36,504 nt of DNA from positions 1-36,504 of IMG/VR virus record IMGVR_UViG_3300036670_000244, one strand, 5' to 3'. The translations under genes were made by a program, and so were the position numbers. Below the pieces are notes generated by a model, which was not told the origin of the DNA, did no database searches, and saw nothing but the letters and a program-made list of their open reading frames with translations. Below are positions 7,211 to 31,037 of the stretch, piece after piece (within the stretch, counting starts at the first letter, position 1; each line of letters starts with the position of its first letter). The stretch comes from a virus.

Positions 7211-7281
7211 CACAAGTTTTTTGTAACATTTTTTATCATAAAATGTAACTTTTTGTTTTGTTTTATTTTACATAATTGATT

Positions 7282-9084: not shown

Positions 9085-9090
9085 CAAAAG

Positions 9091-14836: not shown

Positions 14837-16237
14837 TTAAAATATAAATTCGTTACTAAAAACGGTCAATCCACTCGATGTGTTTACTGCATAAATTCTG
14901 AATGAAACTTTAGGACTAAGCGGAAGTGTTACTAATTGTGGCGAACTTGTACCTCCTAAGAATAATTCATCTCCGATAAATGGCAAATCTGCACTTTCTT
15001 TAAATTGATAGTACAATTCTGTAATTGGGAAATCTTTATTAAATATAAAAGTGAAATTTTCGTTGAAACCAGAAACTACTCTTGTAATATTGGTTAGATT
15101 TAAGGCTGCATTGGTAAATAAATTAAACTGCCATTCTCCAAAAGTAAAGCCTTTAAAATATTCTGGTATTGCAGTTTGTGAACTAAAAATTTCGTTTTGT
15201 TTTACAATTATATCGTAATTGCCAGCAGTAAAACTATAAGCTAAAAAGTCAATATCTAAAACGTTGTTTGTTGCCAATGGAGTAACGGATGCGACCAAAA
15301 CCGAATTTTTATATAATTCTACTATGGTTCCAGTTTCAATTGCAATATTTTTATTAAATGTTAGTTTAAACAATCCGTTAAGTTGGTTTAAGTATAAATT
15401 AGAACTTTGCGGAAAAATTCTATTTACAACCTCTAAATATTGATAAATTTGATAAGAAAACGCTTTAAATTCTTCTCCTAAATTATATTCGTAATCCAAT
15501 TGAAAGAAATTGCTTTGTGCTATTCTATCTCCTTTTTTTGGTGCTGGTTTATTATTAGTTCTAAAACCATTTACGTACAATATGTCGTGTGAAAACAAAG
15601 TAATCACACGTTCAAAAATAAAGTTATTGCAATATTTAAAAGTTCCTTTGCGGATATTTGACAAAATTTGTCTAAAACTAACTACATCTCCATTCTGTTC
15701 TGTGTAACCTTGTTCTTCAATTTTATAATCTAAATCATTGTCGTAACAAACCAGACGAATAGACTGAAAAAAGTTTTGATTTTCGTAAGAAATACCACGG
15801 AAGTAACTTTGGTTTTTATAGTCAAATCTAGTCGTTTCATATTGGTTTATTTTGGTAACAACAAAAGGGGCAGAATACCAAACTTTATCCGATGTAGTGT
15901 GTTGTAATTTCAAATACAAAAGTTCCCCTCCAAAGTCAATTCCGATATTTCCGAACTCAAAAGCAATTTGCCGAATTCCTTTTATATCGGTAAATTCATT
16001 TAAGTAAAAGTTGTCATTTACGTTAAAAGTGAATTTTGTTTCTTGTGCGCAATTTACCAAAGTTGCTTCTAAATTTCCAGCAAAGGCAATATCTGTATTT
16101 GAGTTTGTTATTTGTAAAAAAGTTTCATTTGGCAACATTTGTATAAACCTATTTTCAAAGACTTGACTTACCAATAAATTTTCATTTAGTTTGGCAGTTG
16201 TAAAGTCGGTAGAAAGTTTTAAAAAGCTATTATCCAT
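14837..16237 (-). CDS. Tail tip/baseplate protein (hypothetical)
   Basis: 466 aa from the ATG at 16235-16237, which starts MDNSFLKLSTD; an upstream in-frame ATG (16249) adds four residues. Beta-rich throughout, with repeated short strands ending FSNEFIF, as in phage tail-tip proteins. No domain recognised. It follows late promoter P3 and the hairpin at 16255-16282 and precedes the tail fibre gene by 2 bp. Role inferred from position. Confidence 0.5.
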   Translation of the reverse strand: MDNSFLKLSTDFTTAKLNENLLVSQVFENRFIQMLPNETFLQITNSNTDIAFAGNLEATLVNCAQETKFTFNVNDNFYLNEFTDIKGIRQIAFEFGNIGIDFGGELLYLKLQHTTSDKVWYSAPFVVTKINQYETTRFDYKNQSYFRGISYENQNFFQSIRLVCYDNDLDYKIEEQGYTEQNGDVVSFRQILSNIRKGTFKYCNNFIFERVITLFSHDILYVNGFRTNNKPAPKKGDRIAQSNFFQLDYEYNLGEEFKAFSYQIYQYLEVVNRIFPQSSNLYLNQLNGLFKLTFNKNIAIETGTIVELYKNSVLVASVTPLATNNVLDIDFLAYSFTAGNYDIIVKQNEIFSSQTAIPEYFKGFTFGEWQFNLFTNAALNLTNITRVVSGFNENFTFIFNKDFPITELYYQFKESADLPFIGDELFLGGTSSPQLVTLPLSPKVSFRIYAVNTSSGLTVFSNEFIF

Positions 16238-16254
16238 AATTTTAAACAAAAAAA

Positions 16255-16282
16255 CCCTTTGCCAAAATCAATTGACAAAGGG
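16255..16282 (-). terminator. Terminator-like hairpin in the leader of the tail-tip operon
   Basis: CCCTTTG (16255-16261) and CAAAGGG (16276-16282) form a 7-bp stem; on the - strand the hairpin is followed by TTTTTTTG. It lies between late promoter P3 (16335-16366) and the gene at 16237, so it may attenuate transcripts from upstream or act within the leader of P3 transcripts. Confidence 0.55.
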
Positions 16283-16334
16283 AAAAATTTACAAGTAGAT
16301 CAAACATTGTTTCACAACAGTATTAATTTAATTA

Positions 16335-16366
16335 CAAATATATAAAAAGTATAATCTAATTATACT
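16335..16366 (-). promoter_or_regulatory. Late promoter P3 with inverted repeat AGTATAA-N5-TTATACT
   Basis: On the - strand a -7 box TATATTTG (+ strand CAAATATA, 16335-16342) with a perfect 7-bp inverted repeat (16348-16366) directly upstream, where -33 would be. The same arrangement occurs at 28872-28907 and 30794-30826. It drives the tail-tip, fibre and lysis genes. Overlaps the stop of the upstream tail gene. Confidence 0.65.
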
Positions 16367-19031
16367 ATAAATTACTCAAAGCATCTACTAAATTATTTTC
16401 GGATTCGTAAATTATTCCGTTTAATTGAACTTTATCAAAATTAGTAAGGTTGCAAATCGGAATGTTGTTACTGTCAAATGCTTGAAATAAACCGTTTGAA
16501 ACCTTCCACCAATCTAAAAATCCGTTTAAATCATAAACAACGTCGTCGACAATTATTGAAGTTAAATTAGAAACTATTGTAATAAATTCCGCGCTAAACT
16601 TTTCTTCTCCGGTTACATCTAATTGATTATTTATCCAATTTTGTTTTTGGTTTTGGATGAATAATTTTAAAACACGTCCGTTATTATCGTAACATCTTAT
16701 AAATCCACGATTTAATTTATATTGTGCAATCAATTCTAGTATTTGGTTAAAATCGGCATACAAAGACAAATCAAAAACAGAATCCGTTGTTAGTGGGTTT
16801 TTAAGGTCGATATATTCAATTAATGCGTTTTCTGTTGTTGTTAAAAAAACTTCTAAATCTAATCTACTTTGGTAACTTCCGTTTGACTTGAAATAATTGT
16901 TGACTATATTTTTTTTAGAACCAAGCAAACAACTATGTAAATATTCATCGAAATAACGCATGTTTCTTTTTATGGAATATTGAACATTTTGTATTTTATT
17001 CGGATTTAATGCAACTCCTTCTGTTGTTCTGGTTATAAAATTCACATTGGTAAGTGGATATTCAAATGAAAGAAAACTATCGCCGCTAAATGCTGGAGTA
17101 AAACCAATAGGAGTTAAAGTAAGGACAGAAGCAGTAATTGAAAAAACGGTGTAATTTCCTATATTATTTCCTAAAAGTATTTTAAACGTATCACCAATGC
17201 CAAAGCCTAGCAATAACCAATTAATTACTACATCACTACTATCGCCTTCACTATCTCGGTTTAAAATTTGAACACGTCCAGAAACTACTCTAATATTTAA
17301 ACGCGCACCAAAGCCGCCTTTTGTTCCTGGGGCAATATTCGTAATTTGCACAATGTAAACATCGTCATCGTCGGTAGTTGAAGTACTTGGATTGTTTATT
17401 TCTAAATCTACTGCTGTTTGCATAGCAAAAGGATCACGAACAAAAGAAACTTTTACATCTTTGGTATTTTCTACGTTTTCATTTTGAACGTTCCATTCAC
17501 TCTCGGTATGTATAGCGTTTGAAGTTCCGATAGTATTTCGGTCTTGTTCGTATTTCTTATATCCGAATTTAAACGAATTAATCATGCAGCGATCATTAAA
17601 ATATTTCGCTGAAGCTTCTGAAGGCAAAATTTGAAATACTCCAATTTCGTTGTTGGTGTAAAAATCAGAGTGGTGTCCAATGTAAACTTTATCGTTTTGT
17701 AATTCGTAATCGCAATTTATTTCGGTTATGCTTTCTAAAACTTCTTTGGGCGTGGAATAAAAAGAATCTACTTTTTGAGAAATCATGCTTTTACAAAAAA
17801 CAGCATTATCATAGTGCGTTCCTAATGATTCGAACAAAACGGCATCTACTGGCAAATTGCTTGAATATTTAACGGCTTGTTTAATAAAATCAATCCATCT
17901 AACTCCTTTTACAATTGTATCTAAAGCTGTTGAAGTTGCAGTAATATCAATTTTTAAAGTTTTCAGAATGTTTACCGATACACTCGCAATTGGACTTCCA
18001 GCTGGCAAGGGATTCGGACTTGTAACTGAAAAATAAAACCAAACTTTCTGACCTATTTCTAAAATAGGAATTACAACTTCTGGGAAGGCTTGATTAGTAA
18101 AAGTTATTGCACTTGAACTACTCGAAAAAACATCAATAGTTTGCCAATCTGTTAACGGTATTGTACCGTATGCTACACGAATTCTAATATTTAAAGTTTG
18201 TCCTGACTTAAAAATGCTTCCAGTTAAACCCGATATTTTAATAGTTAAATTGGTAATTCTGCGTTTTGCTTTTATAATTGTGCGGTTTTGAATAGCATTT
18301 GTTACTGTTGTTGTATTAGCGTTGTCGTTGATATAGTCAAACAAATCAAAAGAAGTTAAAGTATTTTCTATTTCATAGCTTTGAATTGTAGAACACGGAT
18401 TAAAAACTAAAGAATCATTACCAAAGAAATTTTCACTTTTAGTAAATATTTCATCTTGAATAAAATTACTACTCTGTTGCGTTGGAGTTGCTTTTCGTAA
18501 AAAATTAAAATTTGGCGCGGGCGTAATTACCTCTTGTTTGGCGTTTTTATCTGCAAAAGCATTGAATTTATTGTCAATTCTGCGCTTAATGTTTTGCACG
18601 TCATTATTCTCAATTAATTTACACTTAATATAAGTATAACCATCGGTTAAATCTTTATCGGTAAAGTCTAAAGTTTGACGTGGTGCAAAAGTGTTACCTT
18701 GACGTAAAATGTAGTATGCTTTAAATTCAAATCGGTATTTTTCCAAACCATACAAAAGCCATTCTAAACCATAATTTAAGTAAGTGGATGTTTCACCTTG
18801 CGGATTTATTACTTGTTCTACATTCGTGTTTTTTCCAATACGATTGTAGAAGGTTAATTTTTCAATTGCTCCGTATTTCGTATCTCTGGCATATCGTTTA
18901 GATTCTTGAGCAATGACAAAACCAGAAGCATCAAATCCGCTAGGTTCACAAATTTCATATAGTTCGTCAAATCCGATTCCTTCAAATTGTAGGTAGTGGC
19001 GAAAATCGTTAGTTTCAATTGGTGTGTTCAT
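16365..19031 (-). CDS. Large tail/baseplate protein (hypothetical)
   Basis: 888 aa. N-terminal region (EGIGFDELYEICEPSGFDAS) followed by beta-rich modules and a stretch FDYINDNANTTT; the C-terminus ends INGIIYESENNLVDALSNL. No catalytic motif seen. The gene follows the tape measure, the usual place for the distal tail or baseplate hub protein. It carries many Asn-rich loops, as tail proteins do. Function assigned from position and size. Confidence 0.55.
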   Translation of the reverse strand: MNTPIETNDFRHYLQFEGIGFDELYEICEPSGFDASGFVIAQESKRYARDTKYGAIEKLTFYNRIGKNTNVEQVINPQGETSTYLNYGLEWLLYGLEKYRFEFKAYYILRQGNTFAPRQTLDFTDKDLTDGYTYIKCKLIENNDVQNIKRRIDNKFNAFADKNAKQEVITPAPNFNFLRKATPTQQSSNFIQDEIFTKSENFFGNDSLVFNPCSTIQSYEIENTLTSFDLFDYINDNANTTTVTNAIQNRTIIKAKRRITNLTIKISGLTGSIFKSGQTLNIRIRVAYGTIPLTDWQTIDVFSSSSSAITFTNQAFPEVVIPILEIGQKVWFYFSVTSPNPLPAGSPIASVSVNILKTLKIDITATSTALDTIVKGVRWIDFIKQAVKYSSNLPVDAVLFESLGTHYDNAVFCKSMISQKVDSFYSTPKEVLESITEINCDYELQNDKVYIGHHSDFYTNNEIGVFQILPSEASAKYFNDRCMINSFKFGYKKYEQDRNTIGTSNAIHTESEWNVQNENVENTKDVKVSFVRDPFAMQTAVDLEINNPSTSTTDDDDVYIVQITNIAPGTKGGFGARLNIRVVSGRVQILNRDSEGDSSDVVINWLLLGFGIGDTFKILLGNNIGNYTVFSITASVLTLTPIGFTPAFSGDSFLSFEYPLTNVNFITRTTEGVALNPNKIQNVQYSIKRNMRYFDEYLHSCLLGSKKNIVNNYFKSNGSYQSRLDLEVFLTTTENALIEYIDLKNPLTTDSVFDLSLYADFNQILELIAQYKLNRGFIRCYDNNGRVLKLFIQNQKQNWINNQLDVTGEEKFSAEFITIVSNLTSIIVDDVVYDLNGFLDWWKVSNGLFQAFDSNNIPICNLTNFDKVQLNGIIYESENNLVDALSNL

Positions 19032-19034
19032 AAT

Positions 19035-21830
19035 TTATACATCTTTTCCGATTCCTGAAACTCGGTTGTTTAGAATCTCAATTTCTTTTTGTCCGTTTGT
19101 AATGTAAGTTCTAAAGCCTTTTTTGTCAAATACTGGCTTGTATTCGTTTTTATTTTTGATTGTAGAAACAAGCCTATCAATATCGGCTTTCTGAATTCCG
19201 CTACTTTGTTGAGATTGGTTTAAAACAATGCCTTGACTAAATAAAGATTGTTCTAGTTTATCTTTCCATTGTTTGTGTGTGAAAACTTTTGTTCCTTTTG
19301 GCGCATCCATTACAACATTTCTTTCTGTTGGTTGCATTATTTTTCCATCTGGAGTAACAATTGTTTCTTTATAATCTGCTCCAAAACCATCATTCACCAA
19401 CATTGCACCTCCTTTGTGGTTTTGAGTTCCTTGAAAATATGCCGGTATTTGTTTTCCAGATACAATTCCAGCTTGTAAAAGTCCGATTACTCCGATTGCA
19501 ATTGATAACGGAACATTTGGCGGTGTAGATGCTAGTGCAGAAATAACTCCTTGAGCAGTATTGATACCTATGTTAAATAATGCTAGTTTTTTAGCCGACT
19601 TAGCCTCTCTTACTCGGATTTCTCTTTGCGAACGTTCGTATTGTCTATCAATTTCTTTTTTTGCTTCAGAACTTTCATTAGAGTAACTAATTGCAATATC
19701 TCTTTGAGTTGCTAAATTATCTCTTTCAATTTGAAAGTTTTCTTTTGATGCATTATTCAATAATGCGAAAGTTTCAATTGCTACATCGCCAACTGCTTTA
19801 AATGTTATTGCAAATTTTTCCTTTAAAGAAGTTGCTCCTTCAATTAGTTTATCAAAAGTACTTTGACCGTTTTTGTCAAAGTCTAAAAACATCCTTACAG
19901 AGGCTAAACCGATACTATTAAGTGAGTTTTCTAAAACTCCACTAGAAATTGAATCAATATATTGATCCGTTGCTTCTTTTAATTTTAACCATGCGTAATA
20001 GTCTGAATAAACAGCTTCATCTGTTAACTCTATTCCCTCAATAACTTCTTCTTGACCTTGAGAAATTTCTTCTTGACCTTGAGAAATTTCTGAAAATAAT
20101 TGTTTGTAGATGGTTTTTAATAAATTTAATTGTCCTTGTATTAATCCGTATGCATCGCTTGTTCTGTCAATTCCATCTAATTCATTTTGTAATGCTGCAA
20201 TATTGGCCTCAATTGCTTTTTTAGAGTTTTTTTGGTATTGTTCTGTAATTTTTACATCCTTTTCTTTGGCTTTGGCTTTGGCTTTAGTTTTATCCTTAAT
20301 TATTTTTTCTTCTTTATAATCTAATAAAATAGATGCTTTTTTTTGTTTGATGGTAAAATCGGTTAGCGTTTTAGATACTTTATCTAATTCGTATTTTTCT
20401 CCGCTTAAGGTATTTATTTTAGAAATTAAAGAAATATATTCCTGGGCCAACTGAGATAGCGCAATACCTTGTGAACTTGAAACATTATCTGAATTTTCTA
20501 ATTCTTTTTGAGTAGAATCTATAATGGTTTTAAGTATTGCCGCCTCTTTTCTTAACTCAAGTCTTTGCATCTCAATATCAATAACCTTTCCTTGATTTTC
20601 TGTAATTTTAGCAACTGCTGCCGTTGCTTTTGCTCTTGCAACAATTGCATTAGTTAAAGCATTTTCTGCAACGGCAGTATTACCAGCCAAAATTTGTTCT
20701 TTACTTAAATTACCTAAATAAGCTGGGTATTGATCTTGCAAAGCTTCAACTGCAATATTTCTTTCTTTGTACGATAAATTAACATCTTTTGCAATTTCTA
20801 AGTTTGCTTTTAATGTAATCAATTCCTCTTGAGCACTTTTTAAACCTTCTTTTCTAACATCATTTAATTTGGTTTGTGCTTCTGCCATTCCATCAATTGA
20901 CTGTGTACCTTTTATAGTTTTACCGATAAACTCAACAATATCTTTTCCGTAAATAGTAAGTAAGGTAATGCCTATGCTTAAAGCAGAACCTAATGTTAAA
21001 AAGCCACCCGCAAAAATTTCTAAAGCATTTTTACTGGGTAAACCTTGCTTTTGAAGTTCCTTCTGCTGTCCTATCGCTTGTTGCATTGCATCAAAGAAAA
21101 TAGGTAAATTATTGGATATCGCTAAAAATCCTGTTTGCACAGAAACGGCAAACGCTGGCATTTCTCGTGTTAATTGATTAATTGAGTTTGACACCGGATT
21201 AAATGCACTGGCGTAATTCCCAACATTTCTTTGGTATTTTCCCATTGAAGCATCAACTGCCTTTAAAGTTCCATCGTATTTTTGTATTCTGGCACTTAAA
21301 AAATCATATCTTTTGGCTTCGCTATCAGATAGCCTTCCGCTTAATTCTTTTTGTGTTGCGAGTGCTTTGTATTCGTTTTGTAACGCGCTTAATTTGGCTT
21401 GTACTTTGTTATACAAATTTAAAGAAGCATTTAGCTTAGTGGCTTCCTTGTCATTTTGAGCAATAGTTTTATCGCGTTGTTTCTCTAAACTTTGACGTGC
21501 TTTGGTTTCATTTTCCAAGGCTTTCATAGTTTGAGCGATAGTAGTAGTTTCTTTTCTTTTTGCTTGTTCAATCTTAATTATTTGAATCTGCAATTTTTGT
21601 ATTAAAGCTTCTTGACGAAAATACTCATCTGCTAACTTTTTGTTGCTAATTATTTGATCGTTTAATCCTTTAGGAGAAACAATGTTTACTGTGTTTTTAT
21701 TTACTAAAAGCGCATCGTTTGCAAGTTTAATCATTGCTAGATCTGCCTTTTCTATTAGTTTGGTAAGTTTGTCAACTTGTTCAAATGCTATATCGCTAGC
21801 AATTAAATCTATTTCGCCATTATTTGCCAT
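19035..21830 (-). CDS. Tape measure protein
   Basis: 931 aa. The N-terminal 200 residues are mostly coiled coil (KLADEYFRQEALIQKLQIQI). Hydrophobic segments lie around 275-295 (LTLGSALSIGITLLTIYGK) and near 785-810 (LSIAIGVIGLLQAGIVSGK). Long Lys/Glu coiled coils lie between. Near the end IPAYFQGTQNHKGGAMLVND and APKGTKVFTHKQW match the C-terminal part of siphovirus tape measures. It sets tail length and spans the tail tube. It lies after the putative tail chaperone gene. A 21-bp tandem duplication at about 20046-20091 gives a doubled EEISQGQ. Confidence 0.8.
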   Translation of the reverse strand: MANNGEIDLIASDIAFEQVDKLTKLIEKADLAMIKLANDALLVNKNTVNIVSPKGLNDQIISNKKLADEYFRQEALIQKLQIQIIKIEQAKRKETTTIAQTMKALENETKARQSLEKQRDKTIAQNDKEATKLNASLNLYNKVQAKLSALQNEYKALATQKELSGRLSDSEAKRYDFLSARIQKYDGTLKAVDASMGKYQRNVGNYASAFNPVSNSINQLTREMPAFAVSVQTGFLAISNNLPIFFDAMQQAIGQQKELQKQGLPSKNALEIFAGGFLTLGSALSIGITLLTIYGKDIVEFIGKTIKGTQSIDGMAEAQTKLNDVRKEGLKSAQEELITLKANLEIAKDVNLSYKERNIAVEALQDQYPAYLGNLSKEQILAGNTAVAENALTNAIVARAKATAAVAKITENQGKVIDIEMQRLELRKEAAILKTIIDSTQKELENSDNVSSSQGIALSQLAQEYISLISKINTLSGEKYELDKVSKTLTDFTIKQKKASILLDYKEEKIIKDKTKAKAKAKEKDVKITEQYQKNSKKAIEANIAALQNELDGIDRTSDAYGLIQGQLNLLKTIYKQLFSEISQGQEEISQGQEEVIEGIELTDEAVYSDYYAWLKLKEATDQYIDSISSGVLENSLNSIGLASVRMFLDFDKNGQSTFDKLIEGATSLKEKFAITFKAVGDVAIETFALLNNASKENFQIERDNLATQRDIAISYSNESSEAKKEIDRQYERSQREIRVREAKSAKKLALFNIGINTAQGVISALASTPPNVPLSIAIGVIGLLQAGIVSGKQIPAYFQGTQNHKGGAMLVNDGFGADYKETIVTPDGKIMQPTERNVVMDAPKGTKVFTHKQWKDKLEQSLFSQGIVLNQSQQSSGIQKADIDRLVSTIKNKNEYKPVFDKKGFRTYITNGQKEIEILNNRVSGIGKDV
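20046..20091. repeat. 21-bp tandem duplication in the tape measure gene
   Basis: TTCTTCTTGACCTTGAGAAAT occurs twice in a row with an offset of 21 bp, giving the doubled peptide EEISQGQ in the tape measure coiled coil. In frame, so the protein is only 7 residues longer. Probably replication slippage. Confidence 0.7.
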
Positions 21831-22443
21831 TTTTATTATTTTTAGAGAATTTTATTAACTCGATCCATTCTTTTACCGTGGTTTCTTTGGCGTTTATTTT
21901 ATACCCTAACTCCAAATTTTTAGAAACTAAAATCATTTGTTGCTGTAAGTTTACACTTTCGGTCTTTTGTGTTTTCTGCAATTCCTTTTCTAATAAAATG
22001 ATTTGCATGTTTAACGATTTTAATTTTTCCACTATTTTAATAGACTCTTTTACGTCGTTTTCTGCTGAGTTTATTAATGGTATGTTATAACTATACTTTT
22101 TTAATACTTCGATGAATTTCGCTCTTGTTTCTTGAGATTCCGTGGTGTTTGTGAAACCTTTTACAATTCGGTTTGCAATGCCTAAGACAATATTATATTT
22201 TAATACTAAAAAATCCCTTCTTGCTACTTTTTGGTATTTCGGAATTAAGCTTGTATCGTTAAAGGCTTTGAAATATTGGTTTATTATTTCTTCGTAAATT
22301 GGATTTAGTTCTGTTGTATCGGCTTTCGGTTGCCTTCCGTTAAAATCTTCGTACAACCACATCAAATCATTTGTAGTTTCGATTTTATCGAAATTATACA
22401 AAGGAAGTTCGTCGATATTTATGTAAAATTTGGTTAAATCCAT
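21820..22443 (-). CDS. Tail assembly chaperone-like protein
   Basis: 207 aa, all-helical by composition, with IVEKLKSLNMQIILLEKELQ as a likely coiled coil. No motif. It overlaps the tape measure gene by 11 bp and precedes it, the usual position of tail assembly chaperones. No clear slippery sequence for a -1 frameshift was found, so the fused form is not claimed. Confidence 0.45.
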   Translation of the reverse strand: MDLTKFYINIDELPLYNFDKIETTNDLMWLYEDFNGRQPKADTTELNPIYEEIINQYFKAFNDTSLIPKYQKVARRDFLVLKYNIVLGIANRIVKGFTNTTESQETRAKFIEVLKKYSYNIPLINSAENDVKESIKIVEKLKSLNMQIILLEKELQKTQKTESVNLQQQMILVSKNLELGYKINAKETTVKEWIELIKFSKNNKNGK

Positions 22444-22917
22444 TTATATAAATTGTTTTGCTTTTGCTCTCAAAGCCAAAATTATTTCATTATTTAACCA
22501 CAATTGTTTGTCCTTAGTTAATCCGTAAAGGTTTTTATATCCTTTAAAAAAATCCGTTTTTTCTCCTCCATCACCGGTGCTGTAAATTCTAACTTTAGTT
22601 AAAGACGAATCAATATCTACTTTAAAATTATTAACAAAATCACCACTCCAAATAAAATTATAATGTTCACCAGCTTTTTTTTGAGTAATTGAATTGCTTT
22701 GTTGCGCGAATAGTTCGGTTGCTAAACTGTAAACTCCATCAAACTTTTTGTTCGTATTTATTAAATTATTACCATCAAAACCGATATGATTTTCGATGTT
22801 TTGTAAATTCAATTTAATTATTTCTGGCTCTTTTTTAATCACAGTTTCTTCTTGGGTATCTAAAATAGTACTTCTAAATTCTTTTAGATTCTTTAAATAT
22901 TGTCGTATTGTTGCCAT
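22444..22917 (-). CDS. Hypothetical tail-region protein
   Basis: 157 aa, mixed alpha/beta, starting MATIRQYLKNLKEF. It lies between the major tail protein and the chaperone-like gene, and its start is just 9 bases after the T-run of the terminator at 22926-22958. A tail completion or chaperone role is possible by position; nothing in the sequence identifies it. Confidence 0.45.
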   Translation of the reverse strand: MATIRQYLKNLKEFRSTILDTQEETVIKKEPEIIKLNLQNIENHIGFDGNNLINTNKKFDGVYSLATELFAQQSNSITQKKAGEHYNFIWSGDFVNNFKVDIDSSLTKVRIYSTGDGGEKTDFFKGYKNLYGLTKDKQLWLNNEIILALRAKAKQFI

Positions 22918-22925
22918 TTTAGAAA

Positions 22926-22958
22926 AAAAGGCGAATAATTATAAACTACTCGCCTTTT
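22926..22958 (-). terminator. Intrinsic terminator after the major tail protein gene
   Basis: AAAAGGCGA (22926-22934) and TCGCCTTTT (22950-22958) form a perfect 9-bp stem. On the - strand it ends in TTTTTTTC. It lies between the major tail protein and the next late gene, where partial termination would raise tail-tube over tail-assembly expression. Confidence 0.7.
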
Positions 22959-22981
22959 GGATTTTAAATTAAATTGAAATA

Positions 22982-23911
22982 CTAAGCTACAATTGCAGTT
23001 TCTTTTTTCGATTTGTACAATATTTCTTCAATTAAAATAATGTTTTTCAATGAAACAACATCGTTTGTTTGAATAGTTACAATATCGCCACTCGCTAATG
23101 TTGGAACTGTTAACGTAACCGAATCTGGACCATAAACAATTACTGTTGGAGTTATGGTTGTTGTATTTCCGGCAGTGGTTTTACTTACTTTTAAATTTGC
23201 AATAGTTATTCCTGGCACTTGGTGCGTTCTATCTCCCAATAAAGGATTAAAAACGATTGAAGTTCCAGCAGTAATTGGCTCGATATTTAAAGTAATATCG
23301 TTTACATCTGTCAATTCGCTTGGTGAGAAATCTAAACTGTCGGCATCAATTCGTACTTGGCGCGTTTCTTCGGAAACATCTGTGTATTGAAACTCCATTT
23401 TTGTAGAAGGCGCAACCGTTCCATCACTACCTTTATAAGGCATCACATAAATTTGAGCGATTGAAATTCCTTTTACTTTTCCTGATTTAGTTTTAATAAC
23501 ATATTTTGCACCACTTACATCATATGCTGCAAGGTTGTATTGTCCGTAAGAAATAAGATCACGCAAAGAGTTTCCGAAGTCCATTCCGTTGTCAAACATT
23601 ACAACGGTTTTACCCGGTGTTTCTCCCGCTAAACGGTCTAAGTTCGAGCCTGGCCTTGTATCATAATTTGGAGTAGAATCTGCCGTTTCAAACGAAACCA
23701 CATCTTGCAAAATTATAATGTTACCCAACTTTTGTTGTGCTTGAATGTAGGTTTTACTTTTGCCTTCGTAGTTAAAACCAGCTTTTGTTAATTCGATAGT
23801 AACAATTCTGTTTTTATCTTTTTTGCAACCAGCAAAACCGAAACCAGCAATATCGCCAGCATCGCAATTCACTAAACCTAATGAATCTAAAAATTCTTGT
23901 AATTCGTCCAT
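22982..23911 (-). CDS. Major tail protein (tail tube)
   Basis: 309 aa. A beta-rich protein with EETRQVRIDADSLDFSPSEL and a C-terminal Ig-like half (SVTLTVPTLASGDIVTIQTN). Size, place between head-tail connectors and the tape measure, and the following terminator fit the tail tube protein. The start overlaps the stop of the preceding small gene (TAATG). No tail sheath gene was found, so the phage should be a siphovirus. Confidence 0.6.
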   Translation of the reverse strand: MDELQEFLDSLGLVNCDAGDIAGFGFAGCKKDKNRIVTIELTKAGFNYEGKSKTYIQAQQKLGNIIILQDVVSFETADSTPNYDTRPGSNLDRLAGETPGKTVVMFDNGMDFGNSLRDLISYGQYNLAAYDVSGAKYVIKTKSGKVKGISIAQIYVMPYKGSDGTVAPSTKMEFQYTDVSEETRQVRIDADSLDFSPSELTDVNDITLNIEPITAGTSIVFNPLLGDRTHQVPGITIANLKVSKTTAGNTTTITPTVIVYGPDSVTLTVPTLASGDIVTIQTNDVVSLKNIILIEEILYKSKKETAIVA

Positions 23912-24087
23912 TATTTGATGAATTTATTAGTTAATAAATGTTTTTCGGCATCTTTACTCAAATTAGTAACCGTTTGCCCTGACTGGTATTTTTTGTCAAG
24001 AGTAAATGGCTTCAAAACTTCGTAGGATTTATCCAATTTTGTTTGTTTTGGCGTTGGTTTTTCAACTGCCTTTTTATCGTTTTCCAT
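23911..24087 (-). CDS. 58-aa small late protein
   Basis: Reads MENDKKAVEKPTPKQTKLDK, then YEVLKPFTLDKKYQSGQTV and a short helix. Its stop overlaps the start of the major tail gene (TAATG), and it starts 2 bp after the tail completion gene stop. The KPFTL...YxxGQTV pattern resembles short phage structural accessory proteins. Function unknown. Confidence 0.45.
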   Translation of the reverse strand: MENDKKAVEKPTPKQTKLDKSYEVLKPFTLDKKYQSGQTVTNLSKDAEKHLLTNKFIK

Positions 24088-24089
24088 AG

Positions 24090-24617
24090 TTAGAATTTTA
24101 TAGTGTTAATACACTTTCGAGTATCGAATGTTATTTTTGCTTCTAAATAAATAACCATCCAAACATCACCAGTAGCATTTTCATCATTTACGTTGTTCCA
24201 TTGGTAATCTTGAATTCTTGAAACATTGTAAAGATTATCTATTTTAGAAATTCCAGATGCTTCTAAAGCTTTAATTAAATTATTCTTAATTGGATTAAGA
24301 ATTCCTTTGTATTCTGCTTTGTAGATTTCTCTATTAAACCTAGATGCTCCTAATGTTTGGGTTGCAATTATTATTTTTGAATCCCGACTGATATAACCAG
24401 TAACTTTGTCCTCTTTGTCTTTTCCTTCGACTAGCCAAATAAGCGGATATTTTGATTTGTTTTCTGGCAAACAGATAAATTCGTTTAACTTTTCCTGACT
24501 TCCCCAATCAAAGCGAATGTTAAAAATTTCTGGACTATCGCTTTCTGCATTGTTAATGTGCGGGGGCAATAGATCTACCAAAATTTCGAATTTTTCTTCA
24601 AAGGTTGTGGTTATCAT
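24090..24617 (-). CDS. Tail completion/terminator-like protein
   Basis: 175 aa, alpha/beta: YPLIWLVEGKDKEDKVTGYI, SKIIIATQTLGASRFNREIY, NPIKNNLIKALEAS and GDVWMVIYLEAKITFDTRKC. The pattern fits the tail terminator or head-tail joining proteins that precede the tail tube in siphoviruses. It overlaps the preceding gene by 4 bp. Assignment is by fold guess and position. Confidence 0.5.
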   Translation of the reverse strand: MITTTFEEKFEILVDLLPPHINNAESDSPEIFNIRFDWGSQEKLNEFICLPENKSKYPLIWLVEGKDKEDKVTGYISRDSKIIIATQTLGASRFNREIYKAEYKGILNPIKNNLIKALEASGISKIDNLYNVSRIQDYQWNNVNDENATGDVWMVIYLEAKITFDTRKCINTIKF

Positions 24618-25249
24618 AATCCGAAAGAATTTACTTGTTCATCACATCCAAAAATGTAAAAGTTATTTTCGTTCCAAGTTGGGAAGTCTGCTTTTTTATC
24701 GATTAAGTAAGTCCAAAAAGAAACGTCAATTTCATTTTGACTAAACCAATCAATTCCATTTTCAAATACAATCGGTTCTGTAACGTAGCCGTTTTGATAC
24801 CCTTTTAAAAATAAGTTGTTAGATCGTACTATTCGATAATTTGAACTGGTGTTTACGTTGTTCTTAGATTTTGCTTTAGAAACTCCCAATGCTGTAAGTT
24901 GGTCAGCGTTTTCTGTTAAGAATATTGCGTGAATTTTATAAGCTAGAAATGAATAATCGTTTTTTAAACCTTTCCAAGTTTTATCGTCGTAATTTTCTCC
25001 ATTAACTAAATTTTTCCATTTGGCATTAGCGTTATCTATATCCGCTAATGCCGTTTGGAGTTCTTGGTAAAGTACATTTCCCAAAGCGTTCAATAACAAA
25101 TCTATTTCAACTTTTGCACAAAGATTATTTATAATACTAACATTGTTTGAAGTTGTTTGTCCTGTACTTGGTACTGGATTTGCAACCGCCAAAGGCAAGT
25201 ACAATTCATTTTCTTTATTGAAGTAAGTTTGATTTATTATCTGTGGCAT
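24614..25249 (-). CDS. Head-tail connector-like protein (DUF6712-like)
   Basis: 211 aa. The sequence NQTYFNKENELYLPLAVANP and the ending FPTWNENNFYIFGCDEQVNS resemble the DUF6712 family of Bacteroidota phages, found right after the capsid gene. A helical core with W, Y and L lies between. Such genes encode head-tail connector proteins. Ends with an ATGA overlap to the tail completion gene. Confidence 0.55.
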   Translation of the reverse strand: MPQIINQTYFNKENELYLPLAVANPVPSTGQTTSNNVSIINNLCAKVEIDLLLNALGNVLYQELQTALADIDNANAKWKNLVNGENYDDKTWKGLKNDYSFLAYKIHAIFLTENADQLTALGVSKAKSKNNVNTSSNYRIVRSNNLFLKGYQNGYVTEPIVFENGIDWFSQNEIDVSFWTYLIDKKADFPTWNENNFYIFGCDEQVNSFGL

Positions 25250-25255
25250 GGTAAA

Positions 25256-25384
25256 TTACTTTTTAGCTGCTAATTTTTTCTTTAGTGCTTCCGCTTCGTG
25301 TTTGTTGACTAAACATTTTACTCCGTTTATCTCAACTTCTACTGTGTTTTCTGCGTAAAACCCTTTTGATTCTTCTTTTGCCAT
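25256..25384 (-). CDS. 42-aa small late protein
   Basis: Reads MAKEESKGFYAENTVEVEIN, then GVKCLVNKHEAEALKKKLAA and KK. Its place between the capsid gene and the DUF6712-like gene and an intact frame suggest a real small structural or decoration protein. Function unknown. Confidence 0.45.
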   Translation of the reverse strand: MAKEESKGFYAENTVEVEINGVKCLVNKHEAEALKKKLAAKK

Positions 25385-25410
25385 TTTATGGTTTATTTAA
25401 AAATTAATAA

Positions 25411-26685
25411 TTAAACAGTTGCAAGTAATGCCTTAGCTGCCGTGAAACTTCCTTTTACAATAGCCCCGTAATTTGTACTAGAAATATAACCAGCTCCGCG
25501 CATTTCAGCTAATGGAGTAATCATATTTTTAGTCCAGTCATTACCATCGTAACCCAATTGCATAGAAATATCTTCTCTAATTTTGAATTTGTATTTAGAG
25601 AAATCGCCAACGTAGAAATCATTAATTCCAACACCAGTATTCATTTCAACTGCAACACCTCTTACATTCATTCCATCAGCAGTAATAAACGGTGCTAATA
25701 AATAATGTCCATCCGTTCCTTTTTGTAAATCCATGATTGCGGCTTTATCTGGATGGATAAATATTTTAGTTGGTATAAACTCTTGTCTATAAACTTGAGC
25801 AATTGCAGCGCGTAAAACATCAGTATCATTTGGAGTAACAACAGAATCGGCTAAACCACCAGCTGCGAAAGGAGTAGCATTTACAGAAATACCAATAATT
25901 TTATCTCCAGTTCCTGAACCAGTTAATGCTTCCTGGTCTGCTACTAGTAAAATTCTTTCTTCTAATTCGTTCTGAATGTCTTGTGCAAATCCTTCAATAT
26001 CCTCTAACATTTCTTTAGAAACTTTAGTAAAAGCGGTGATTTTTCTAATCGGCACACTTCTTTCGATGTAATCCCAATCAATTTGCGCTTTTGTTGCTCC
26101 TTCAGCAGTCATTTCTGGAGTTCCATCTGGATTAACTTGATCTACCCAATACAAAGTATTTGCAGTAGTTCTCGTTACAGTTACACTATCTAAAACAAAT
26201 GGTCTACGTCTTACGATTCGGTTTCTTTGCGCTTCTGTTTCAATTCTTGCAACTCTGCCAGTAGTGTTTGTAGAAATAAGCATATCGGCAGCCGCTTTAA
26301 CTGTAAAAGTCATAGTTGCTCCTTTGCTAGTTTTTAAGCTTTCAAAATCTTTTTTATTCGCTTCTATAACTTCTTTGATTTGCTCTGCAATACTTTTGTT
26401 TTCGTTATCACCAGGAACTCTGTTTTTCATAGCTTCCATATCAATTGCGATATCTTCAAACTGTTTAACTAATGTGTCAAACTTTGATTTTTCGATACCT
26501 TCTTTTTTCAAATTTTCGATAGAAGTTTTGATAGTATCTAAATCGTCAGATTTTGGTAAATCTTCGATACTTTTTGCTAATTGGTCAAGGAATTCACCGT
26601 GCAATTTAGCTTTTTCGGCTTCTGTTTTTTCTTCAAATTGAGATTCAGAAATGCCTTTTGTCAATAAAAATGCTTTAAATTTCAT
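25411..26685 (-). CDS. Major capsid protein, HK97 fold
   Basis: 424 aa. The first 125 residues are a charged, helical scaffold-like delta domain (KIRE, KDFESLK), followed by HK97-fold blocks: IVRRRPFVLDSV, SVPIRKITAFTKVSKEMLED, ERILLVADQEALTGSGTGDK, EFIPTKIFIHPDKAAIMDL and GAIVKGSFTAAKALLATV at the C-terminus. The delta domain is expected to be removed by the protease encoded directly upstream. Forms the icosahedral head. Confidence 0.9.
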   Translation of the reverse strand: MKFKAFLLTKGISESQFEEKTEAEKAKLHGEFLDQLAKSIEDLPKSDDLDTIKTSIENLKKEGIEKSKFDTLVKQFEDIAIDMEAMKNRVPGDNENKSIAEQIKEVIEANKKDFESLKTSKGATMTFTVKAAADMLISTNTTGRVARIETEAQRNRIVRRRPFVLDSVTVTRTTANTLYWVDQVNPDGTPEMTAEGATKAQIDWDYIERSVPIRKITAFTKVSKEMLEDIEGFAQDIQNELEERILLVADQEALTGSGTGDKIIGISVNATPFAAGGLADSVVTPNDTDVLRAAIAQVYRQEFIPTKIFIHPDKAAIMDLQKGTDGHYLLAPFITADGMNVRGVAVEMNTGVGINDFYVGDFSKYKFKIREDISMQLGYDGNDWTKNMITPLAEMRGAGYISSTNYGAIVKGSFTAAKALLATV

Positions 26686-26689
26686 TTTC

Positions 26690-27502
26690 TTACGAGATTA
26701 AATTAGAATAATAACTTTTTTGTGTTTTGTGAGTGTCGTTTGACGGCTCTTTTTTTCGAGTGTCGTTTGACGGCTCGTAATTTTTAACGTATAAAGTAGG
26801 GGTGATACTATTGCTTCCGAAAACAACGGCACTTCCTTCTCTTTTCTTTGCTTGACTAACTACCCAAAAATAACCGCATTCATCTGCCACCTCTGGATTG
26901 ATTGCTTTTGCTTTCATTTCGTTAAAGAAATCCATTTCTTTTTGGCTTTCTTCGTTTCTGTAAGCAATGTCTAAATCCACATACATCATTCCGATACTAT
27001 GCTCGTTTACCTCTCCATTTTTATAAGCATCAAACATTATAGGAAGCTTGGAACGCTCTAAAATGAATTCATTTATATTGGCTTCCATTTCAAAATCAAT
27101 ACTTAAACCTAAGTCTTTGAAATTCATTTTTTCGTTGTAGGATTTCGCCTTATTTGAAATAACAAATTCAAAATCTGACTTGTGTGATTTTAAATGGTAA
27201 CTATTCGGATTGTCTTTTACTGTTTTATTCCAAATTCCTTGTAAGTGTAAATCCATGTGCGAATCAATAACATTTGTAGTATTGACTACCGTTTTAACTT
27301 GTATAAAATCGGATTTAATATCTTCAATAATTGGCGTGAATTCTTTAACAAATATGTTAGAATTCAACATAGGTTCTGACTTTGTTTTATATTCCGCTTT
27401 TTTTAAAGCAAAGAGTTCGCTCTTGTTTTCTTGCATGAAACGAATCATATCCATTTTATCGGTAAATGACTTATTCGGAAATTGTTTTATTGTGTGTTTC
27501 AT
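26690..27502 (-). CDS. Prohead protease, HK97 (S78-like) type
   Basis: 270 aa. The catalytic His lies in YHLKSHK (His103 or His107) and the nucleophile Ser in NEHSIGM (Ser169), as in the HK97 prohead proteases. It would mature the capsid protein encoded 5 bp downstream. The C-terminal tail carries a doubled EPSNDT(R/H)K from a 19-bp direct repeat (26731-26749 and 26758-26776). Starts with an ATGA overlap to the small Cys-rich gene upstream. Confidence 0.8.
   Translation of the reverse strand: MKHTIKQFPNKSFTDKMDMIRFMQENKSELFALKKAEYKTKSEPMLNSNIFVKEFTPIIEDIKSDFIQVKTVVNTTNVIDSHMDLHLQGIWNKTVKDNPNSYHLKSHKSDFEFVISNKAKSYNEKMNFKDLGLSIDFEMEANINEFILERSKLPIMFDAYKNGEVNEHSIGMMYVDLDIAYRNEESQKEMDFFNEMKAKAINPEVADECGYFWVVSQAKKREGSAVVFGSNSITPTLYVKNYEPSNDTRKKEPSNDTHKTQKSYYSNLIS
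26731..26776. repeat. 19-bp direct repeat in the protease C-terminal tail
   Basis: GAGTGTCGTTTGACGGCTC occurs at 26731-26749 and 26758-26776. It encodes the doubled EPSNDT motif. In frame, near the C-terminus, so it does not disturb the catalytic domain. Unlike its surroundings it is GC-rich. Confidence 0.6.
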
Positions 27503-27624
27503 TTCTTTACAATTTTACCTTGTGATACAATTTTGTTTCTATTCGATATTACCCGGTTAATTTTTTTTGTTTTGCACTTGCAGTTTGAAACTTCGCAATC
27601 ATTACATTTTTTATTCTCTTTCAT
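27499..27624 (-). CDS. 41-aa Cys-rich mini-protein between portal and protease
   Basis: Reads MKENKKCNDCEVSNCKCKTK, then KINRVISNRNKIVSQGKIVKK. Four Cys as CxxC...CxC (residues 7, 10, 15, 17) suggest a zinc-knuckle fold, with a basic tail. It overlaps the portal stop and the protease start (ATGA on both sides), so it is firmly part of the head operon. Possibly a portal/scaffold accessory factor; function unknown. Confidence 0.5.
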   Translation of the reverse strand: MKENKKCNDCEVSNCKCKTKKINRVISNRNKIVSQGKIVKK

Positions 27625-28841
27625 AACTTCAAATTTTTCATTAATTCCGTTGTTTTTGCTTTAGCATCTGCAACTGTAATAGTTTGGTTTTCAATTCCTG
27701 ATTTCATGGCATTTTGAAAATCGGATAAAGTTTTAATCTTTGCATTCATCACAGATTGCATTATTGGTAAATGATCGTAAGAAGCGACAAGCTTTTCGCC
27801 TTTATCAAATAATCCCCATTGTTGGCTAAATGAATTCATTGTGCTATCTGCATCCGTCTGAGTAGAATTTTGTAAATATCTTAAAAATCCTTGCTCTTGA
27901 TTTTCGTGAGTGGATGCACCATTGCTAAAATAGTTTAGCATATCTCGGTTCATTTCAAAGGCATTTAAACAAGTGGTTGCATCGTTGCTTAGCATTTCAT
28001 CTAAAAACAATTTTTTAAAGTCACTTACTAAGTGTTTTACTTCAATATCGTTGTTGGTAATCTGAATTGTTTTACTCCAAAGTACCTTTTCGATAGTTTT
28101 TCTGTCTGCTTCTTGAATAGGAGTTGCCACGCCTTGCATGTTATTTTTGTTCTTTGCCAAATACTTCTGGCTAAACTTGAGATTTACATTTTTAGATTTT
28201 ATATTCTCATCGATGTTTTCTAAAACCTTTGAAATTCCTTTCACACGGCTTGGCGAATGCATAAAGGAGTTTTTTATTAAACCATTGGATAAATCGTAAA
28301 ATGGAATAATATCTTTTAATGATATTTTCGTTTTTTCATTATCTAAGCAATAAGTGATTTGTTTTTCTCCGTATGCTTTCTTATCTTTTTCAGTAGTTAT
28401 AAAACTATTTATTTTGTGCACGTTTTTAAAATCTACATCACTGGGAATAAGATTATAAATTGATTTAGCGATTTCGCTTTCTGTGTTAGCAGTTCGTGCT
28501 TTAATTTGATATGTCAAGTTCGTTCCAGTTGCAGATTGAAACCACATTAACTGATACAGGAAGTCCTCTTGGGATTGAAAGAAATTCGGAGTATTAAGTA
28601 GTTTTACGTATTCGGAGTTTTCAATTATAGTCCCATCTTCTTGTTGATGTGTAATTCTCATTTGTGAGAAAATCTTTGACCTTAAAGAAATTATAGTAAG
28701 CAGTACCGGATTGCATAAAGATAAATCTAAGTACTTTTCTGAGTTTACGAAACCTTCCGAGTCGATAAGTGTGTAAAATGTATTTCCATTTCTATCTCTT
28801 TCAAAGGTGAAAGCGTTTCGCAACCAATTTTTTATACTCAT
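27621..28841 (-). CDS. Portal protein (HK97 type)
   Basis: 406 aa. A helical N-terminus with NPVLLTIISLRSKIFSQMRI, a core with LLNTPNFFQSQEDFLYQLMW and LIPSDVDF, and PFYDLSNGLIKNSFMHSPSR match HK97-type portals, including the clip region around TIEKVLW and the stem NRDMLNYFSNG. It forms the dodecameric DNA entry ring. It follows late promoter P2 and ends with an ATGA overlap to the Cys-rich mini-gene. Confidence 0.8.
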   Translation of the reverse strand: MSIKNWLRNAFTFERDRNGNTFYTLIDSEGFVNSEKYLDLSLCNPVLLTIISLRSKIFSQMRITHQQEDGTIIENSEYVKLLNTPNFFQSQEDFLYQLMWFQSATGTNLTYQIKARTANTESEIAKSIYNLIPSDVDFKNVHKINSFITTEKDKKAYGEKQITYCLDNEKTKISLKDIIPFYDLSNGLIKNSFMHSPSRVKGISKVLENIDENIKSKNVNLKFSQKYLAKNKNNMQGVATPIQEADRKTIEKVLWSKTIQITNNDIEVKHLVSDFKKLFLDEMLSNDATTCLNAFEMNRDMLNYFSNGASTHENQEQGFLRYLQNSTQTDADSTMNSFSQQWGLFDKGEKLVASYDHLPIMQSVMNAKIKTLSDFQNAMKSGIENQTITVADAKAKTTELMKNLKL

Positions 28842-28871
28842 ATCTATCGATGTTTCACAACATTAATTTCA

Positions 28872-28907
28872 CAAATATACAAAAAAGTATAACTTAATTA
28901 TACTTTT
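28872..28907 (-). promoter_or_regulatory. Late promoter P2 with inverted repeat AAAAGTATAA-N5-TTATACTTTT
   Basis: - strand -7 box TATATTTG (+ strand CAAATATA, 28872-28879), with a perfect 10-bp inverted repeat (28883-28907) upstream. No TTTG is seen at -33; the repeat takes its place, so an activator is plausible. It lies 31 bp upstream of the portal start, between TerL and portal genes. Confidence 0.7.
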
Positions 28908-28911
28908 GTAA

Positions 28912-30267
28912 TTATTTAATACCTAAGTAAAACTGAAGGAATGTTTTTACATAACGGTCGGCATCAATAATGTGATCGTCTTTCTTAATTGGTCTATCTA
29001 AATTCATACCTTTCACAATTTCCCATTCGTAATTTTCGTACTCAAATTGATAGTTATTACTAGAACTTGTAAAATAGTTTTGTTTCGAATTAACAAAGTC
29101 TATTCCTTGATTTACGCTTCCTGGTCCTTTAATAGCCGGAACAACATTAAACCCATATTGCAATAATTCACTTATTCTATTTGGATCGGCAGAATCCGCA
29201 ATAATTAAACTATTTTTTTCTATTCCGATAAACTCTAATGTTTCTGCAAGGCTCAAAGTCATTTGACTAATTGGCATGTACAAACGTTCTTTGCTGAAAA
29301 AACAATCTTCATAAAATTTAACCTCAACTAGCGCACTTGGATTTGTAGAACCGAAATCTAAACCAAAATAAGAACTTGCTGGTATGTTATCGAATTCGGC
29401 ATCGCTTATAATTATAAAACCTCGATAAATTCGATTAGGCTTTTCGGCTTTTTCTCCTAAAGCATAAACAGAATGCATATAAGCATCTGCTGTACCATTC
29501 GATACGTTTATCGGATTTGCTGGATCGTATGATAATATTTTTAATTTCTGACCAACTGGGCAAAATGGATTATTCTTAAATGTACTATGAATTACTTTAC
29601 AGCGCGGGTGATCGTCTAAATTATCACTCCAATGCATTCCGCTGGGGTTAATGTCAATTATAATTTGTTCGGCTCTTTGGTCGATTTGGTCGAAAGTTTC
29701 ATTTGTCATTTTGTATGGTTCGTTTAGCCATGCAATATCTTGAGTAATTCCGTGAGCGTTTGTAGTATCGTCGCCGTGTGGTTCGATAATCGAACTATTA
29801 TTAAAAAAAATAGGTACAGTGTTCCTGGTGAATTTGTATTTTCTTCCAGATAGCGGAAATATCTTTTTAAAATCTTTCCAAACCGAGTTACCTAAGCTTT
29901 CTCTTGTATCTCGCCAAACAGTTACACGTAGGTTTTTATTTTCTTCGCATTTTCTGATAATGTATTCCTCAATACTCCATGATTTAGAGCTTCTGGAACT
30001 GCCAACGTGCTTAATGTATTTATATCGAAAAATCGAGTGTTCTCCTTCTTCGTAAAAGTAAAAGAAGTTTACTTCCAACGGATATAAAAAGAATCCTTTC
30101 TTTATTTCGTATAGTTTTTTTGAAGTAACTATTTGTTTAATTTTTACACAATTATCTCCGTTATCCTTGTATAAAAAAAGCTTATCGTTTACTTTTTCGA
30201 CAAGCTTAATTTTTAAAGATGAAAAGAAATCGTGTTTTATAAAAACTTCTGTTACTCCGTATTCCAT
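28912..30267 (-). CDS. Terminase large subunit
   Basis: 451 aa. Walker A is GSSRSSKS (89-96), with Ser in place of the second Gly, Walker B QDIAWLNEP (176-184). The C-terminal nuclease has acidic residues in GLDFGS (D304), IIADSAD (D358) and HIIDADRY (D435, D437). About 85 residues precede the ATPase, longer than usual, and do not match a known domain. It packages DNA into the prohead. Adjoins TerS. Confidence 0.85.
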   Translation of the reverse strand: MEYGVTEVFIKHDFFSSLKIKLVEKVNDKLFLYKDNGDNCVKIKQIVTSKKLYEIKKGFFLYPLEVNFFYFYEEGEHSIFRYKYIKHVGSSRSSKSWSIEEYIIRKCEENKNLRVTVWRDTRESLGNSVWKDFKKIFPLSGRKYKFTRNTVPIFFNNSSIIEPHGDDTTNAHGITQDIAWLNEPYKMTNETFDQIDQRAEQIIIDINPSGMHWSDNLDDHPRCKVIHSTFKNNPFCPVGQKLKILSYDPANPINVSNGTADAYMHSVYALGEKAEKPNRIYRGFIIISDAEFDNIPASSYFGLDFGSTNPSALVEVKFYEDCFFSKERLYMPISQMTLSLAETLEFIGIEKNSLIIADSADPNRISELLQYGFNVVPAIKGPGSVNQGIDFVNSKQNYFTSSSNNYQFEYENYEWEIVKGMNLDRPIKKDDHIIDADRYVKTFLQFYLGIK

Positions 30268-30774
30268 TTATTCGGGTTGTAGTTCTTTTTTTAAGTCCTC
30301 GTAAGATTTACCTTCTGCTAAAACTATCGGTATTGATTTTGTTGTTATTTTATCACCATCGCTGGTTATGTCGGTTTTGTCAACAAGTCCTAATTTTCTT
30401 GCAATTATATTCGGATTAAATGCGCCAACTGTCGCACCTTCAAACTGTTGATTTTCAATAATTGTTTTAATTGTTTTAGTGATACGGAAAAAAGCTTCGT
30501 AACCTTCTTCTTTTAAATAATTATCAAAAGTACTTTCGTCTATGTCCGCAAATGTGCAAAATGAACCAATTGACATCGGAATTTGAGTAGGAATGTCAAT
30601 TAATTTTCCGGCTAAATCACCTGATTTAATTGGATCTTTTTTATTCCAAACCTTTTTAGAAATCCAATCAAAATACTTTATAGCTTCTTCCCACAAACCA
30701 TCTGGAGTATATTTATAATCTCGACCATGTTTGTTTCTGAATTCCCAGTAATTATTACCTAATGGTGCACTCAT
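30268..30774 (-). CDS. Terminase small subunit
   Basis: 168 aa. Early helices (DGLWEEAIKYFDWI), then MSIGSFCTFADIDESTFDNY as the DNA-binding helix-turn-helix, and AFNPNIIARKLGLVDKTD, the typical TerS ending. The stop adjoins the TerL start. It recognises the packaging site and starts DNA packaging. It is the first gene after late promoter P1. Confidence 0.75.
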   Translation of the reverse strand: MSAPLGNNYWEFRNKHGRDYKYTPDGLWEEAIKYFDWISKKVWNKKDPIKSGDLAGKLIDIPTQIPMSIGSFCTFADIDESTFDNYLKEEGYEAFFRITKTIKTIIENQQFEGATVGAFNPNIIARKLGLVDKTDITSDGDKITTKSIPIVLAEGKSYEDLKKELQPE

Positions 30775-30793
30775 TTCATTAATTTTATTTCAA

Positions 30794-30826
30794 CAAATAT
30801 ACAAAAAGTATAATTATGTTATACTT
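30794..30826 (-). promoter_or_regulatory. Late promoter P1 with inverted repeat AAGTATAA-N5-TTATACTT
   Basis: - strand -7 box TATATTTG (+ strand CAAATATA, 30794-30801), with a perfect 8-bp inverted repeat (30806-30826) directly upstream. Transcription would start about 13 bp before the TerS ATG (30774). It overlaps the 3' end of the RHH gene, which is a candidate regulator. Confidence 0.7.
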
Positions 30827-31037
30827 TATTTATAATAATTGAATTATTACTGAAAGGGCAGTACTCTGGTTTAGGTTTTAATATTTCGTGTTTTTCTCTT
30901 TGTAGCTTTTCTGATATTGCATCCCGAATAAAACTGGCTACATTTATTTTATAAGACTTCATTTTTTTAAGTGTTGAATCTTGAACTTCTGAAATTCTTA
31001 TTACTTTTACTTTTTTATATTTTATAGGTGTTGCCAT
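30819..31037 (-). CDS. Ribbon-helix-helix regulator
   Basis: 72 aa from the ATG at 31035-31037; the upstream frame runs into the attC-like remnant. VKVIRISEV is the expected beta strand, QDSTLKKMKSYKI the first helix and NVASFIRDAISEKLQRE the second, with the FIR.AI signature of Arc/CopG-type ribbon-helix-helix proteins. A Pro-rich C-terminus with one Cys follows. It ends in the inverted repeat of late promoter P1, so it probably binds AAGTATAA...TTATACTT sites to control late genes. It may be autoregulated. Confidence 0.6.
   Translation of the reverse strand: MATPIKYKKVKVIRISEVQDSTLKKMKSYKINVASFIRDAISEKLQREKHEILKPKPEYCPFSNNSIIINKV

Follow-up and report, generated by a model that had tools for sequence, protein, structure and literature searches.

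Late promoters lying before terS are the targets of late activators and antiterminators such as lambda Q and ArpU/RinA, and in phage P1 the C1 repressor controls several lytic operons through dispersed operators, which are asymmetric 17-mers. In mycobacteriophage L5, the sites are asymmetric 13-mers, about 24 in number, mostly intergenic and bound by a monomer (PMC9283540, PMC5712189), and the related situation of phage D29 is that the L5 stoperators were kept after the loss of the repressor (PMC5712189). Our searches of the open-access literature turned up no study of how temperate Flavobacterium phages control their late genes.

The phage described here, whose DNA was analysed over the whole stretch of 36,504 nucleotides (hereafter, the window), is temperate and related to Flavobacterium phages. 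Three of its late promoters carry the same 19-bp dyad, AGTAT-N9-ATACT, which is probably the operator of a phage-encoded regulator.

The three dyads and their promoters

The late region comprises the following features (window coordinates):

30819..31031, minus strand: ribbon-helix-helix-like (RHH) protein (phrog_25647), directly upstream of terS
30807..30825, minus strand: putative operator dyad 1, AGTATAACATAATTATACT, before terS; shares bases with the stop codon of the RHH gene upstream
30794..30801, minus strand: -7 box TATATTTG of the terS promoter; spacing to the dyad 5 bp
30268..30774, minus strand: terminase small subunit (terS), Pfam GP3_package
28912..30267, minus strand: terminase large subunit (terL), Terminase_3C
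28886..28904, minus strand: putative operator dyad 2, AGTATAATTAAGTTATACT, before the portal gene; exact match to the repeat
28872..28879, minus strand: -7 box TATATTTG of the portal promoter; spacing to the dyad 6 bp
28851..28862, minus strand: leader 12-mer TGTTGTGAAACA of the portal transcript; 5-bp stem, GUGA loop
27621..28841, minus strand: portal protein, assigned by synteny and phrog_12 (E=1e-4)
16348..16366, minus strand: putative operator dyad 3, AGTATAATTAGATTATACT, tail region; exact match to the repeat
16335..16342, minus strand: -7 box TATATTTG of the tail-region promoter; spacing to the dyad 5 bp
16308..16319, minus strand: leader 12-mer TGTTGTGAAACA of the tail-region transcript; same 12-mer as in the portal leader
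16255..16282, minus strand: hairpin of an intrinsic terminator, with 11 pairs and a following T7; some 50-80 nt past the tail-region promoter
14837..16249, minus strand: tail-region gene, the first to follow promoter 3 and the terminator

An earlier note on this DNA had pointed to an inverted repeat, AGTATAA-N5-TTATACT, a few base pairs upstream of three late -7 boxes. This was borne out: the repeat has three exact matches before these boxes and none elsewhere in the record, and TATATTTG follows it 5, 6 and 5 bp downstream on the minus strand. Its functional core is the 19-bp dyad. Since the arms are identical and the loops differ (CATAA, TTAAG and TTAGA), the three dyads are not recent duplicates of one segment, and their arms are under selection. 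A chance origin of the three dyads is excluded. Markov simulations gave an expectation of 0.05 AGTAT-N9-ATACT per genome (0 for the 7-5-7 form), and in a look-elsewhere test, which considered any dyad with 5-bp arms and any spacer repeated upstream of TAnnTTTG, the largest family had one or two members in 200 simulations versus the three observed, a family of three arising in 0/200.

The Bacteroidota -7 box TAnnTTTG (TAHHTTTG) is present at all three dyad promoters (3/3). The form TATATTTG occurs five times among the 75 TAnnTTTG of the window, the remaining two copies belonging to the pair of divergent promoters that separates the first early gene from CI. In Flavobacterium johnsoniae, the -7 box lies at -12 to -5 and transcription starts 4-5 nt downstream of it (PMC6847099); on this basis, the 19-bp dyad would span about -37 to -18, with its centre near -28 and its left arm in the place of the -33 element. 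In agreement with the earlier note, TTTG is absent at -33, i.e., about 19-21 bp upstream of the -7 box, from the three dyad promoters, where AGTAT sits instead. This absence is an ordinary one, since in F. johnsoniae RNA-seq data the host promoters in general show hardly any -33 motif, the AT-rich motifs at -18 and -28 being far more evident (PMC6847099). A similar picture emerged from related phages, in a non-redundant set of 43 late promoters of which only that of L106 has the AGTAT dyad: TTG near -33 was found 6 times versus 6.5 in shuffles, and TTTG was marginally commoner (6 versus 2.8).

Downstream of the promoters, the 12-mer TGTTGTGAAACA following TATATTTG is conserved in 78 IMG/VR stretches (L008-L123), usually 7-13 nt upstream of the portal start codon; it is absent at the terS promoter of the window. 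A strong terminator hairpin (16282-16255), missing from the earlier note, separates the third dyad promoter from the next gene. The same order of elements, that is a promoter with the 12-mer, a strong intrinsic terminator about 50 nt further on and then a gene, is seen in the window (16342-16236, minus strand) and in about ten phages, including L055, L059, L072, L076, L084, L087, L096, L098 and L099, and might be read as a short leader RNA, an attenuator or an antitermination (put-like) signal.

Some other repeated elements were observed in these phages. The late promoters of L051, L092, L094, L110 and L116 have a different dyad, similar to TTACGTT-N3-AACGTAA, and then TTTG 19-20 nt before TATATTTG; this dyad is possibly the site of another regulator. 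The sequence (A)AAGTATTAC, or a close variant of it, precedes the start codon of the RHH gene in the window (31032-31046, minus strand) and in L023, L024, L025, L026 and L029, and represents a possible autoregulatory site of the RHH genes, many of whose products end in CPF. Lastly, the window contains direct repeats (1-133 versus 33581-33713, 98% identity; 248-547 versus 36077-36376, 79%); its left end copies an internal segment, so that the assembly terminates in a repeat.

Distribution of the dyad and of the lysogeny module

The search for the repeat in other phages, which the earlier note had proposed, gave a divided answer: the exact 7-5-7 form had three IMG/VR matches, none of them a convincing late promoter, whereas the 19-bp core was recovered in the records G002, G003 and G004. 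These were the multi-copy records of an IMG/VR scan for AGTAT-N9-ATACT plus TATATTTG, a pattern with much coding noise among its matches. Three to four copies are present in G003 (33.6 kb) and G004 (32.7 kb) and two in the partial G002 (14.3 kb), at TAnnTTTG boxes with a spacing of 5-8 bp; the -7 box of the G003-type late promoter, TAGCTTTG, is a non-consensus one. The dyad-bearing units are the late operon after the integrase, operons for replication and exonuclease, and the portal gene in the case of G002. After the tape-measure gene, G003 and G004 also have a copy that is nearly perfect but lacks a -7 box. The second gene of the putatively dyad-controlled late operon of G003 (L243, 5572-6024) codes for a small sigma-factor-like protein (phrog_1740).

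A tighter scan added G084, G083 and G082, together with an integrase-less group (group 3) having one dyad each, AGTATTGTTATTCAATACT, after the endolysin gene. Being possibly terminators or relics, these single dyads were left out as support; the dyads of G008/G009 (structural-gene region) and G085 (CI/Cro-type region) were left out of the membership. In the apparently unrelated phage G085 (L323, 5774-6138), AGTAT-N9-ATACT-like dyads form a cluster in a CI-Cro-type intergenic region, so that the dyad form is also seen in an immunity-type region. In G081 the dyad is found only close to either end of the contig, and the two copies are probably a single site.

A de novo dyad search, to which no letters were given, returned AGTAT-N9 as the top family in the window, G002, G003, G004, G083 and G084, and found no family like it at the dispersed promoters of eight comparison genomes, six of them temperate or near-temperate (G021, G026, G027, G028, G032 and Arctus_1) and two integrase-less (G062 and G077). 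The close terL relatives of the window in IMG/VR have the same -7 box and the conserved leader before the portal gene, and no dyad; the same combination was found at the portal promoters of relatives without a detected integrase. In G083 the dyad precedes the first late gene, whose orthologues (76-80% identical) in the integrase-less G062, G077 and G081 have TATCTTTG and no dyad.

The genes of the window that are relevant to lysogeny are the following:

6857..7111, minus strand: first early gene (Cro position), second candidate binder; common to G002, G003 and G004
7276..7902, plus strand: CI-type repressor, HTH_3 and Peptidase_S24
8692..8925, plus strand: 77-aa protein, best candidate for the dyad-binding regulator; related to phrog_9710, putative HTH protein
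9192..10466, plus strand: tyrosine integrase, which marks the phage as temperate

A tRNA 3'-end-like sequence, probably attP, lies between the last two genes (9040-9110).

The window and G003 have in common only the first early gene (37%), the HTH of CI, the 77-aa protein (43%), a distant integrase and TerL. An integrase and an HTH_3 repressor are present in the window, G002, G003 and G004, and the integrase is absent from the dyad-poor relatives tested. The repeated dyads track a related integrase/CI/77-aa-protein module, the exception being G084, which we read as a deletion derivative; this association was obtained from the window, G002, G003 and G004 versus the eight comparison genomes, and the independent lineages carrying the module are only two, i.e., the window and the G002/G003/G004 clade. 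Some counts were made on fragments and G002, G003, G004 and G084 are close kin, so that the effective sample size is small.

A putative repressor of late promoters and the competing explanations

From the presence and position of the dyad, its repeated occurrence in other phages and its link to the module, we infer that AGTAT-N9-ATACT may be the operator through which a protein of the lysogeny/immunity module represses the late promoters in the lysogen, a reading to which we assign a probability of about 0.55. It is suggested by the fact that the dyad is tied to the lysogeny module and overlies the polymerase site. According to this model, a dimeric DNA-binding protein from the module would occupy the dyad in the lysogen; the bound dyad, adjoining the -7 box, would block RNA polymerase at the late promoters, and the virion genes would be kept silent despite their distance from the CI-controlled early promoters. 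Upon induction, the protein would be lost or diluted and the late promoters would fire, with no activator required at the dyad. Against the model stand the possible weakness of the naked dyad promoters, which have no -33 element, the occurrence of dyads in G084 and group 3 without the 77-aa protein, and the non-consensus -7 box of the G003-type late promoter.

The case of G084 is informative in this respect. Most genes that this record shares with G003 are 97-100% identical, and in G084 CI, the 77-aa gene and most of the integrase have been replaced by other genes (L321, 12210-15168; one of them codes for a PAPS-reductase-type-looking protein), which makes a recent conversion from a temperate to a virulent phage probable. 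The dyads were kept. Their retention fits a repressor, because the loss of an activator would be costly, whereas the loss of a repressor would leave harmless relics.

As for the binder, the most likely one is the 77-aa phrog_9710-related protein (8692-8925, plus strand), which is the best candidate on account of elimination and co-occurrence. A scan of all of IMG/VR with this protein returned only G002, G003 and G004, records that the DNA pattern had already found, and a phrog_9710 search of 81 phage records (50 plus 31 more, with two repeats among the 31) gave clear matches only in the window and the same three; searches of genome contigs with TerL and with the 77-aa protein gave no match. 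The gene lies downstream of CI in the CI operon, its start overlapping the end of the preceding gene, and this position suggests that it is expressed in the lysogen. The protein matches phrog_9710, a family of unknown function, with E=1e-5; its assignment as an HTH protein is putative, since it has no Pfam, NCBIfam or PDB match and its AlphaFold (AF2) models are poor (pLDDT 52 and 44). More tentatively, it might represent a second repressor of the lysogen, distinct from CI and belonging to an undescribed small family (phrog_9710 relatives), whose dedicated task would be to silence internal late and replication promoters via palindromic operators lying over the site of the polymerase.

Other proteins were considered as binders. 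CI itself is unlikely, as the repeats of the CI region differ in their letters from the AGTAT dyad both in the window, where the presumed CI operators are TGTAACA-TTA-TGTTACA, and in G003. The product of the first early gene is less likely than the 77-aa protein, for Arctus_1 has its relative and neither the 77-aa protein nor the dyad. The 64-aa winged-HTH protein of G003, G004, G084 and G062 is missing from the window.

The earlier note had interpreted the dyad as belonging to an activator-type late regulon, and of this idea the shared dyad and the regulon at three promoters have stood, whereas the activator site in place of the -33 element has not, given the weakness of that element in F. 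johnsoniae and the orthologous promoters of integrase-less relatives that keep the box without the dyad. A phage-encoded late activator contacting RNA polymerase from the dyad would agree with the lack of TTTG at -33 in every dyad promoter and with the late position of all three window sites; it would also be well served by the one G084 dyad that moved from 6 to 16 bp upstream of its -7 box, that is exactly 10 bp or one helical turn, so that the helical face was kept. However, Flavobacterium promoters in general have only a weak -33 element (PMC6847099), the dyad is not conserved at the orthologous late promoters of integrase-less relatives, and it lies at a variable distance (5 to 8 bp) from the box; moreover, one G003/G004 dyad precedes replication genes, another has no -7 box, and G084 retains its dyads with no regulator in common with the window. 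On the whole, we regard an activator as rather unlikely. If there were one, it would hardly be the RHH protein acting as a Q/ArpU-like late regulator: its sequence is RHH-like and its gene, at the end of the early operon, adjoins the first dyad, yet the records with its relatives (G013-G017) have no AGTAT-N9-ATACT and the dyad-bearing G002, G003 and G004 are without it, which makes this idea very improbable.

It might also be argued that each repeat is an intrinsic terminator that ends the upstream gene next to a promoter, in the order hairpin, T-run and TATATTTG. Each window repeat does run into T5-T6 (with folding energies of -4 to -8 kcal/mol, i.e., weak hairpins), GC-rich hairpins right before TATATTTG are common in related phages (e.g., L118, L122, L065 and L013), and the group-3 dyad directly follows the endolysin gene. 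Terminators would not be expected, though, to have identical arms with different loops, nor to share the same AGTAT...ATACT letters among distant phages; several dyads of G003/G004 fold poorly (-0.8 to -4 kcal/mol), and no T-run is found at the dyads of the G004 exonuclease site, the G084 early site and the G003/G004 tape-measure site. A protein site is the better explanation, because the letters of the dyads are retained even at sites that have lost the T-run, and several of the hairpins are poor, and we consider a terminator function improbable. A similarly low likelihood attaches to a host transcription factor that would bind the dyad and couple the late genes to host physiology: the dyads do persist in G084 and group 3 without the 77-aa protein and CI, but other temperate and integrase-less relatives, which probably have similar hosts, show no repeated dyad, and G084, being nearly identical to G003 in the bulk of the genes they share, probably lost the module recently.

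Comparison with known systems

The model of late silencing is amenable to experiment, since it comes down to a single short DNA site with a candidate protein, and G084 offers a natural loss experiment. If it were true, late silencing in lysogens would be direct and would require a dedicated repressor, and the dyad with its -7 box might be used as a tight repressible promoter in a bacterial group for which few genetic tools are available.

As in lambda Q and ArpU/RinA systems, the late promoter before terS would be targeted; unlike them, no homologue was identified, and the dyads follow the lysogeny module and are absent from integrase-less relatives. The window resembles the lambda-type CI/Cro immunity in its CI-type protein with Peptidase_S24, its divergent early promoters and its integrase, and differs from it in that the dyad letters are not those of the CI-region repeats and the sites stand at late promoters rather than at the early switch. 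With P1 C1 it would share operators dispersed across several lytic operons, those of P1 being, by contrast, asymmetric.

The closest likeness is that with L5 and the cluster A mycobacteriophages, where many copies of one site, in early and late regions, are served by one phage repressor (here putative); the same site is repeated at several transcription units, its presence is tied to the lysogeny module, and G084 would stand to its temperate kin as D29 does to L5, a virulent deletion derivative that keeps the sites after losing the repressor. The site is not of the asymmetric 13-bp L5 type (GGTGGMTGTCAAG): it is a 19-bp palindrome, present in 2-4 copies and nearly always directly before the -7 box, and, unlike the situation in L5, the dyads are apparently separate from the CI operators. 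Dispersed phage operators being known from L5 (PMC9283540), what we describe here is most likely a palindromic, promoter-overlapping variant of them, with a new candidate repressor and acting on Bacteroidota-type promoters.
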